Of a stretch of DNA of 64,000 bases, positions 54,543 to 57,354 are shown piece by piece (the first letter of the stretch is position 1; the number at the start of each line of letters is the position of its first letter). Source of the DNA: Frigoriflavimonas asaccharolytica (GTDB taxonomy: Bacteria; Bacteroidota; Bacteroidia; Flavobacteriales; Weeksellaceae); assembly GCF_013294015.1 (NCBI RefSeq), contig NZ_JABSNO010000009.1:1-64000 (forward strand), written 5' to 3'. A program made the translations under genes and the position numbers. The notes under the pieces are model-generated. The model had not been told where the DNA came from and did no database searches. It worked only from the letters and a program-made list of their open reading frames with translations.

Positions 54543-54983
54543 ATGAAAACACTATTTTCAATCTTTGCTTTCCTATTTTTTTTAGGATTTACAAATGCAC
54601 AAACTCGTTTTGAATTAGCAAAAAAAACAGCATTGGAAAAGAATGAATTAATTTTGCTCAATTTTTCTGGTTCAGATTGGTGTATTCCCTGTATAAAATT
54701 GCATAAAAATATTATTGAATCTGATGATTTCAAAAAATTGACAAACGATGGTGTAATTGTATATCTCAATGCAGATTTTCCAAGAAATAAAAAAAATCAA
54801 ATTGCTGCAAATCTTAAAAAGGAAAATACTGCTCTTGCAGATCAATACAATGCTAAAGGTTTGTTTCCTCTGACACTTTTATTGAATGCTGATGGAAAAA
54901 TCTTGAAAACTTGGGAAGGTTTACCAACCGAAGATGCGAAATCTTTTACACAAGAAATTTTAGCTTTTTACCATAAAAAGTAA
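54543..54983 (+). CDS. Exported thioredoxin-like protein
   Basis: A 146-residue periplasmic protein with signal peptide (1-18, ending FTNA) and a thioredoxin fold. The active site is WCIPC in NFSGSDWCIPCIKLHKNII near residue 44, with the cis-proline region KGLFPLTLLLNADGK near residue 105. It is the first gene of a four-gene unit: apbE follows at 6 nt. Its presence suggests disulfide handling or reduction for the cysteine-rich DUF4266 product, which is an inference. Confidence 0.88.
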   Translation: MKTLFSIFAFLFFLGFTNAQTRFELAKKTALEKNELILLNFSGSDWCIPCIKLHKNIIESDDFKKLTNDGVIVYLNADFPRNKKNQIAANLKKENTALADQYNAKGLFPLTLLLNADGKILKTWEGLPTEDAKSFTQEILAFYHKK

Positions 54984-54989
54984 ATAAAA

Positions 54990-55916
54990 GTGCAGAAAGT
55001 ATTCCGAAAATCTCAAAAATTAATGGGAAATATTTTTGAAATCACTGTCGTAAATGATGATGAAAATATGGCTTTTGAACATATAGAAACCGCTATTTCG
55101 GAAATTCAAAGAATAGAAATTTTGCTTACTACTTTTAATGAAATTAGCCAAACAAATCTCATCAACAAAAATGCTGGAATTGATTATGTAGAAGTAGATG
55201 CAGCAGTTTTTCAATTGATAGAACGAAGTTTAAAAATCAGCCAAATTACAGATGGTTTTTTCGATATTTCTTATGGCGGAATAGATAAAACGTTTTGGAA
55301 TTTTGATAGAGAAATGCAGCAACTTCCAAATCCAGAATTGATAAAAAATCAACTAAAATTAGTGAATTATAAAAATATACTTTTAAACCATGAAAACAAT
55401 TCAGTTTTATTGAAAGAAAAAGGAATGAGAATTGGTTTCGGAGGTATTGGTAAAGGATATGCAGCAGAAATGGCAAAAAATATTTTACAAAGAAGAGGTG
55501 TTGTTTCTGGTATTGTAAATGCTTCCGGAGATCTTACAACTTGGGGAACTCAAGCAGATGGAAAACCTTGGACTATAGGAATTGCAGATCCAGAAAATGC
55601 AACTTTGCCATTTTCATACCTTAATATTACCGATACTTCTATCGCAACTTCTGGTAATTACGAGAAATTTGTAATCATCGATGGCAAAAAATATTCTCAT
55701 ACCATCAATCCAAAAACTGGAATTCCAATTTCCGGAATCAAAAGTGTTACGATTATTTGTCCAAACGCAGAAATTGCAGATGCAATGGCAACACCTGTCG
55801 GGATTATGGAAACAAAAGACGCACTAAATCTCATAAATCAAATTCATCAAGTAGAATGCATCATCATTGATGACAAAAATAAAATTCATTCATCTAAAAA
55901 TATTAATTTCAAATGA
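54990..55916 (+). CDS. apbE: FAD:protein FMN transferase
   Basis: A 308-residue ApbE that links FMN to Ser/Thr of exported proteins. Motifs are GFGGIGKGYAAEM near residue 152, VNASGDLTTWG near residue 178, the SIATSGNYEKF segment and HTINPKTGIPISG near residue 235. No signal peptide is seen and the start is a GTG at 54990. An alternative ATG at 55023 is the conserved MG of the family, so the GTG is preferred. It overlaps the DUF4266 gene by 4 nt (ATGA). No classical flavinylated partner (NqrC, RnfG, FMN-bind) is in the window. Confidence 0.9.
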   Translation: MQKVFRKSQKLMGNIFEITVVNDDENMAFEHIETAISEIQRIEILLTTFNEISQTNLINKNAGIDYVEVDAAVFQLIERSLKISQITDGFFDISYGGIDKTFWNFDREMQQLPNPELIKNQLKLVNYKNILLNHENNSVLLKEKGMRIGFGGIGKGYAAEMAKNILQRRGVVSGIVNASGDLTTWGTQADGKPWTIGIADPENATLPFSYLNITDTSIATSGNYEKFVIIDGKKYSHTINPKTGIPISGIKSVTIICPNAEIADAMATPVGIMETKDALNLINQIHQVECIIIDDKNKIHSSKNINFK

Positions 55917-56134
55917 AAAAAATTGGGCTGAAATTAGCAATCGGATTTTTCTTTTTTTCTTTAATTCACTCTTGCACGGTTGTGAAAGAATATGAAAAAA
56001 ATAAACTAAATGATGCCGAAATGGCACTTGGAAATAGGACAATAGAAAAAACAGAACTCAACTTTCAATCGTATAGGGAAGGATCTTCTGGTGCAAATGC
56101 AGGAAAAGTTGGTGGTGGTTGCGGTTGTAACTAA
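55913..56134 (+). CDS. DUF4266 lipoprotein with GGGCGCN tail
   Basis: A 73-residue exported lipoprotein (C21 in LIHSC) followed by NDAEMALGNRTIEKTE, the DUF4266 core, and the C-terminal GGGCGCN (residues 67-73). The tail with two cysteines could bind a metal or a cofactor. A SSGANAGK stretch resembles part of an FMN acceptor site but lacks the classical SGAT threonine. It is encoded between apbE (4-nt overlap) and the DUF3570 gene (29 nt). Family function unknown. Confidence 0.85.
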   Translation: MKKIGLKLAIGFFFFSLIHSCTVVKEYEKNKLNDAEMALGNRTIEKTELNFQSYREGSSGANAGKVGGGCGCN

Positions 56135-56163
56135 TAGAGTTCTAAATTTTATATTTTTAAATA

Positions 56164-57354
56164 ATGAAAAAAATATTCATCAGTATCATTGCGCTTTTCG
56201 GCATCTTTAACGCAAAAGCACAAGAGAATACCAATTCTGAACCTTCAAAAAAATTAACTTTAGAAGAGGTAAACCTTGTATCAAGTTATTATAAACAAGA
56301 TGGCAATAATTCTGCAGTTACAGGTGGAATTGGTTCAGAAAAACTAACAGATATTTCCAATTCTATTGATGTAGTTTTAGTGAAAAACGACAGTAAATTA
56401 AGGAAAAATAAATTCACTTTTGATCTTGGTATCGATCATTATACTTCCGCATCTTCAGATCAAATAGATTTAAAAGCAAATTCTTCCGCTTCAAGTGCAG
56501 ACACAAGATTTTATCCTTCTCTTGGATGGAGCAGAGAAAATGAAACCAAAGGAAGTACAATAATGGCAGGAGTTTCTTATTCCGGAGAGTTTGATTATCA
56601 ATCTATTGGAGCAAATATTGGTTTTTCTCAAAAAACGCCAAACAAAATGGGAGAGTTTACTGCAAAATTTCAAACTTTTCAAGATCAAGTTACTTTAATT
56701 GCACCAATCGAATTAAGGACAGGAAACTCAAATGGTGGGGAACATGATAATTACGGAACGAGTGGTAGAAGTACATACGCAGTTTCTTTATCGTATTCGC
56801 AAATTATCAATCATAATTTTCAGGTTGAATTGATGACGGATGCAGTGCAACAAACTGGGTATTTAAGTTTGCCATTTCATCGTGTTTATTTTAATGATAA
56901 TACGGTTCATCAAGAAAATTTACCCAATAAAAGATTTAAACTACCGATAGGCATTCGAGCCAATTATTTTTTGGGCGATCAATTTATTTTTAAAACATAT
57001 TACAGATATTACACCGATAATTGGGGTTTGAAATCTCAAACATTTAATATAGAAGCACCTGTGAAAATTTCGCCATTTGTTTCTGTAAGCCCTTTTTACA
57101 GGTATTATACGCAAACAGGAACCAAATATTTTTCGCCATATCAAGAGCATACCGCATTTGATGATTTTTATACCAGCAACTACGATTTATCTACATTTAA
57201 TAGTAATTTTTATGGAGCAGGAATCCGTTTTAATCCAAAAAACGGCTTGTTTGGAGTATCAAGATTGAATATGCTTGAAATAAGATATGGACATTACACC
57301 AAATCTATCGGCATGAAATCGAATATTATTTCTTTAAATTTAAGGTTTAAGTAA
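56164..57354 (+). CDS. DUF3570 outer-membrane protein
   Basis: A 396-residue exported beta-barrel (signal peptide 1-20, ending NAKAQ). It belongs to DUF3570: SYSQIINHNFQVELMTDAVQ, LPFHRVYFNDNTVHQENLPN and the aromatic strand NYFLGDQFIFKTYYRYYTDN are typical, and the protein ends with ISLNLRFK, a barrel-end strand. It is probably an outer-membrane barrel that works with the DUF4266 lipoprotein and ApbE. It is last in the unit. Confidence 0.88.
   Translation: MKKIFISIIALFGIFNAKAQENTNSEPSKKLTLEEVNLVSSYYKQDGNNSAVTGGIGSEKLTDISNSIDVVLVKNDSKLRKNKFTFDLGIDHYTSASSDQIDLKANSSASSADTRFYPSLGWSRENETKGSTIMAGVSYSGEFDYQSIGANIGFSQKTPNKMGEFTAKFQTFQDQVTLIAPIELRTGNSNGGEHDNYGTSGRSTYAVSLSYSQIINHNFQVELMTDAVQQTGYLSLPFHRVYFNDNTVHQENLPNKRFKLPIGIRANYFLGDQFIFKTYYRYYTDNWGLKSQTFNIEAPVKISPFVSVSPFYRYYTQTGTKYFSPYQEHTAFDDFYTSNYDLSTFNSNFYGAGIRFNPKNGLFGVSRLNMLEIRYGHYTKSIGMKSNIISLNLRFK

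Follow-up and report, generated by a model that had tools for sequence, protein, structure and literature searches.

Where does a flavin transferase without a signal peptide meet its acceptor when the partners encoded beside it are exported? This question is raised by four forward-strand genes at positions 54543-57354 of the window, the 64,000-nucleotide stretch of Frigoriflavimonas asaccharolytica DNA (contig NZ_JABSNO010000009.1) that was analysed here. In order, the genes encode a thioredoxin, ApbE, a DUF4266 protein and a DUF3570 protein, with spacings of 6, -4 and 29 nt, and the Pfam matches of all four lie above the family cut-offs (Table 1). The N-termini of the thioredoxin, DUF4266 and DUF3570 are hydrophobic; that of ApbE is not. 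The first-pass annotation had described these positions, spacings and export signals, with ApbE as the exception, as well as a 73-residue lipoprotein ending in GGGCGCN, and the coordinates, Pfam matches, N-termini and lipobox-like cysteine bear it out. The best explanation of the cluster as a whole, to which we give an even chance, is that DUF3570 is flavinylated in the cytosol, exported and inserted as a barrel, and that electrons pass from the thioredoxin through the CGC tail of DUF4266 to the flavins.

Table 1. The four genes and their features, in window positions
Feature	Position	Strand	Match or remark
Thioredoxin-like protein, exported, 146 aa	54543..54983	+	Pfam PF13098/PF13899 (Thioredoxin_2/Thioredoxin_7), 2.7e-08 and 3.7e-07
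Thioredoxin WCIPC	54678-54692	+	
ApbE, FAD:protein FMN transferase, 308 aa	54990..55916	+	Pfam PF02424, 8.8e-77; GTG start; no signal peptide
ApbE core LMGN, residues 11-14	55020-55031	+	
DUF4266 lipoprotein, 73 aa	55913..56134	+	Pfam PF14086, 2e-18
DUF4266 lipobox-like Cys21	55973-55975	+	
DUF4266 tail GGGCGCN	56111-56131	+	CGC in 133/133 relatives (collected clusters, including the best 80 of 576)
DUF3570 protein, predicted outer-membrane barrel and FMN acceptor, 396 aa	56164..57354	+	Pfam PF12094, 2.2e-27
Putative acceptor motif 1, D91-H-Y-T-S-A-S97	56434..56454	+	Consensus Gly replaced by Ser
Putative acceptor motif 2, S107-S-A-S110	56482..56493	+	Consensus Gly replaced by Ser

A conserved cluster and its metal-related neighbours

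The thioredoxin is nearest to DsbH-type reductases, with an NCBIfam DsbH match (1.8e-17) below the cut-off, and among solved structures it matched PDB 2ju5, 'Thioredoxin Disulfide Isomerase' (3.4e-10). ApbE aligned to solved ApbEs across the conserved SH-x-INPxTG and ADA-x-AT stretches and has the fold and catalytic stretches of the family. The set of four genes had been taken as undescribed, which was wrong: the cluster was reported by Méheust et al. (2021, eLife, PMC8238504), the only work found in the literature searched to name DUF4266 or DUF3570. In that paper, DsbD-linked clusters contain DUF3570 227 times, a thioredoxin-like protein 183 times and DUF4266 221 times, 316 more are counted without DsbD, and the cluster filter required signs of an extracytosolic position (a signal peptide or lipidation) for one or more target genes.

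The window cluster shares with that system the four families, an exported thioredoxin, a lipoprotein with a C-terminal CXC and an ApbE adjoining its DUF3570 substrate. It differs in that the ApbE has no signal peptide, although DUF3570 does carry a hydrophobic N-terminus; in that DUF3570 has TSAS and SSAS instead of two [S/T]GA[S/T] motifs; and in that DsbD, optional in the published clusters, is encoded elsewhere, the DsbD_TM protein of this genome lying on contig C21. The window cluster is thus a Bacteroidota variant of the known ApbE/DUF3570/DUF4266/thioredoxin flavinylation system. As far as we found, several features are new: a clade of signal-less ApbEs with exported partners, serine for glycine in both acceptor motifs, a modelled 16-strand barrel whose two sites share a single conserved loop, presumably on the outer side, the CGC tail as the putative only exported thiol partner of the thioredoxin within the cluster, and frequent VIT1, Rieske, b561 or RND additions in related clusters.

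We found that linkage of these genes in Bacteroidota, mentioned in the first-pass annotation, is real and that the arrangement lies far beyond chance. A search of 395 genomes of the class found 45 with DUF4266, 46 with DUF3570 and 43 with both, where 5 would be expected (Fisher p 2e-51), so that the two form an almost obligate pair. We also collected 134 clusters, made up of 53 DUF4266-anchored loci, the window and the best 80 of 576 confirmed DUF3570-anchored loci, a choice that biases the set towards close relatives. Of these clusters, 133 have DUF4266 in the same-strand run, 130 have DUF3570, 127 ApbE and 120 the thioredoxin, and the gene order is mostly that seen in the window.

Some loci depart from this pattern. 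The DUF4266 gene at L088:6935-7147 has no adjoining ApbE or DUF3570, a DUF3570 of the same genome lying on another contig (G113 C29); that at L089:6939-7145 also stands without them, and no DUF3570 was found in its genome, which is 77% complete. Two DUF3570 genes lie in tandem in each of L166:6001-8430 and L168:6001-8400. In L164, L159 and L080, DUF4266 adjoins DUF3570 and the run showed no ApbE, although the thioredoxin is still present in L164. A further 24 clusters, mainly of Chryseobacterium (L105:3733-4125 and 23 others), encode an exported-looking protein of some 129 aa that has no Pfam match; in most of them its gene directly precedes that of the thioredoxin. Six loci (for example L077:8254-8913) have an exported-looking protein of 219-244 aa between the thioredoxin and an ApbE that carries a signal peptide; its identification as DsbD or CcdA was rejected, as Pfam scans of two members gave no match and the N-terminus resembles that of an exported protein.

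Other genes join the run in many clusters. VIT1 is present in 29 of the 134 (best 80 of 576 included), upstream in Flavobacterium and Pedobacter and downstream in Chryseobacterium, Empedobacter and others; a rough chance estimate of 1e-36, assuming 2 VIT1 per 3500 genes and ten neighbours, is overstated as the clusters are related. Méheust et al. (PMC8238504) noted 25 clusters with VIT1 and put forward iron assimilation. In our 134 clusters, again including the best 80 of 576, the run also contains Rieske proteins (14), Haem_bd (10), b561 (7), RND proteins (14) and membrane-fusion proteins (17), with a P-type ATPase in some; b561 and Rieske proteins would offer other sources of electrons. Since VIT1 and RND proteins are usually metal exporters, detoxification is no less a possibility than uptake. 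The predicted function of the cluster is most likely that of an envelope electron-transfer device for metals.

These neighbours also fit a system that chiefly handles metals, in which CGC would bind Cu, Fe or Mn and a flavinylated barrel would reduce the metal or pass it on with the VIT1 or RND exporters. Vicinal thiols bind soft metals, and VIT1 takes either side of the core according to genus. However, most of the 134 clusters (best 80 of 576 included) have no adjoining metal gene, and none lies next to the window's own cluster, the VIT1 of this genome being on another contig; moreover, the partner that is conserved, a thioredoxin, is accounted for no less well by thiol exchange. We therefore regard metal handling as the chief role as somewhat unlikely.

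An ApbE clade without a signal peptide

The lack of an export signal in ApbE is shared by its relatives. In the collected clusters (best 80 of 576 included), none of the 97 LMGN-type ApbEs has a hydrophobic N-terminal stretch, whereas one is found in 99% of the thioredoxins, 96% of the DUF4266 proteins and 100% of the DUF3570 proteins, as judged by simple hydropathy, not SignalP. In a class-level sample of 50 ApbEs inspected by eye, 24 lacked a signal, 24 had one, one was fused to a thioredoxin and one was unclear. A quick tree placed the signal-less ApbEs, with the fusion among them, in one clade (39 rows, SH-aLRT 92). Sister clades in the same kind of clusters keep signal peptides, and in L038, L054, L061 and L084, which fell into signal-bearing clades, a hydrophobic N-terminal stretch was seen by eye. 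A missed start codon was rejected, since the stop of the thioredoxin gene lies in frame 6 nt upstream and the relatives share the short N-terminus. Across the clusters no more than 13-52 nt separate this stop from the ApbE core, which leaves no room for an ApbE signal outside the thioredoxin gene.

Export could in principle take an unrecognised route. ApbE, exported non-classically or taken along by the thioredoxin, would then be periplasmic after all and would flavinylate DUF3570 before barrel assembly. One locus joins the two genes in a single open frame of 476 aa (L083:5500-6930), whose thioredoxin part has a signal that would place this ApbE in the periplasm; it could be a natural fusion or an assembly error. 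The signal peptides of the sister clades point the same way, as does the fact that most characterised ApbEs are periplasmic lipoproteins (PMC12052999). Against this, the L083 fusion is unique among the 34 family genomes with a match, two of the others carrying in-frame stops between the genes; thioredoxin and ApbE core share a frame in only 20 of 94 cases, so read-through is not conserved; the LMGN ApbEs uniformly lack a hydrophobic N-terminus; and working cytosolic ApbEs are known (PMC12052999). Read-through or fusion as a general export route was rejected on these frame counts and the single true fusion, and we consider a periplasmic ApbE unlikely.

Cytosolic flavinylation has a precedent in ApbEs without a signal that serve a cytosolic fumarate reductase (PMC12052999). 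The case of Klebsiella pneumoniae, with its soluble fumarate reductase (PMC12052999), resembles ours in a signal-less ApbE for which cytosolic action is expected, and differs in that its acceptor stays in the cytosol; the window acceptor would be an outer-membrane barrel that is exported and lacks FMN_bind. No report of a signal-less ApbE adjoining an exported substrate was found, and the searched passages of PMC8238504 make no mention of one. The window ApbE is the only one in its genome by genome-wide search, and the signal-less ApbE is the sole one in 9 of 23 genomes of the group. On the simplest reading, DUF3570 would receive its flavins while still an unfolded precursor that has yet to be exported by Sec, because ApbE has no signal and its partners do, because it is the sole ApbE and because there is no other known substrate family. 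The ApbE would attach FMN to Ser97 and Ser110 of the precursor in the cytosol, and the flavinylated protein would cross the inner membrane by Sec. The size limit of the Sec channel is about 22-24 angstrom. Passage of preproteins with bulky conjugates through it was reportedly the subject of work by Bonardi et al. in 2011 (cited in PMC8082313).

For the Bacteroidota clade, the combination of flavinylation before Sec by an ApbE that lost its signal, a two-flavin barrel sent to the surface and no export of FAD seems to us evenly balanced between right and wrong. How FAD reaches periplasmic ApbEs was called obscure in a 2025 review (PMC12052999). If our reading is true, a sole, signal-less ApbE with an exported substrate would be a case that needs no FAD export, and a covalent flavin would pass the Sec and BAM machineries.

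DUF3570 as predicted flavin acceptor and barrel

Family searches of the genome found no FMN_bind, NQR2/RnfD or DUF2271 protein and a single DUF3570; no other known acceptor family has a member there. It had been stated that no classical FMN acceptor is present, and this is contradicted by Chlorobium luteolum: when its DUF3570 was co-expressed with the cognate ApbE in E. coli, flavin became covalently attached at serines of two [S/T]GA[S/T] motifs (PMC8238504). According to the same paper, the flavinylated protein was found in the insoluble pellet and purified under denaturing conditions, which suggests that flavinylation does not need a folded barrel; the signal peptide of another pair was truncated, and a similar strategy is described for the C. 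luteolum DUF3570 pair.

The acceptor consensus of ApbE is D-x-x-[S/T]-G-A-[S/T] (PMC12052999). Both window motifs deviate from [S/T]GA[S/T], which counts against our main reading, and in another acceptor a Gly-to-Ala change about halves flavinylation (PMC12052999). A motif census revealed that TSAS with SSAS is the commonest form in the class: at site 1 the Gly position is almost without exception Ser, and site 2 has Gly mainly where the ApbE of the cluster has a signal peptide. A96 and S97 are invariant in 27 divergent DUF3570s, D91 as well in 66 closer ones, and Ser97 and Ser110 are invariant in both alignments. We predict from these sequences that the window DUF3570 is a flavin acceptor at Ser97 and Ser110.

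The deviation of both motifs also fits a reading in which they are no longer modified, with ApbE serving a cytosolic protein or acting as an FAD hydrolase and the barrel put to another use; signal-less ApbEs with cytosolic substrates do exist (PMC12052999). However, the invariance of the two serines in the 27- and 66-sequence alignments, the absence from the genome of FMN_bind, NQR2/RnfD and DUF2271 candidates and the continued adjacency of DUF3570 and ApbE all speak against it, and we judge this quite improbable.

The assignment of DUF3570 as an outer-membrane barrel, also made earlier, agrees with modelling. An AlphaFold2 model from 66 sequences predicted a closed barrel of 16 strands, an even number, behind the signal (mean pLDDT 87, pTM 0.81), and its best Foldseek matches were porins, OprD-type channels and FadL; a profile search of solved structures with DUF3570 gave no usable match. 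If both termini of the model are periplasmic, the two sites lie together in the second loop on the outer side, at residues 94-112. Positions conserved at 90% or more make up 28.6% of the loop side and 2.6% of the turn side. The sites are presumably in an outer loop, with the membrane side taken from the strand count; the loop may fold into the lumen, and nowhere in the mature barrel is the model less confident (pLDDT about 56). In the preferred reading, BAM would insert DUF3570 with its two-flavin loop at or near the outer face. In Mtr-type conduits an outer-membrane barrel is paired with a multihaem cytochrome. The likeness is one of working only, in that a barrel, redox cofactors and periplasmic electron carriers would act together, and the difference is that the flavins here would sit on the barrel itself. 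If true, common genera such as Chryseobacterium, Flavobacterium and Pedobacter would possess a compact flavin-based outer-membrane electron conduit.

The thiol branch: thioredoxin and DUF4266

The thioredoxin carries a CxxC. Of 130 DUF3570 proteins, 122 lack any cysteine beyond residue 30, and CGC is invariant in DUF4266 (133 of 133; best 80 of 576 included in both counts), which makes the CGC of DUF4266 the plausible exported thiol partner of the thioredoxin within the cluster. With an invariant CGC beside a DUF3570 essentially without cysteines, a thiol or metal role of the tail, kept reduced by the thioredoxin, is likewise plausible. In PMC8238504 the CXC of DUF4266 was suggested to cycle. 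Searches of solved structures with DUF4266 gave no match.

Under the reading we favour, the exported thioredoxin would be recharged by DsbD, encoded elsewhere, or by another donor. In the periplasm, electrons would move between it and the CGC tail, which would then pass them to the barrel flavins and on to a surface acceptor, most likely a metal such as iron. Electron transfer from DUF4266 to the flavins is what we infer here, as are the timing of flavinylation, the side of the loop, the rest of the electron path and the acceptor. SoxY ends in GGCGG and thioredoxin reductase in GCUG, reactive cysteine tails served by thioredoxin-type proteins. DUF4266 has no sequence relation to either, and what it has in common with them is a flexible, glycine-rich C-terminus, a reactive cysteine and a thioredoxin-type partner.

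It had also been proposed that DUF4266 is itself a small flavin carrier, and its E56-G-S-S-G-A-N62 (window 56078-56098), part of an RE-G-x-S-G-A-N stretch, does resemble the seven-residue ApbE motif; however, the acceptor-equivalent position is Asn in 92% of 133 proteins (best 80 of 576 included) and Ser or Thr in very few, and the preceding Ser is Ala or Gly in other clades, so that a flavin acceptor was rejected on conservation and a carrier, next to a member of the family shown to be an acceptor in PMC8238504, is very improbable. The likeness may be a coincidence within a tail rich in glycine and serine.
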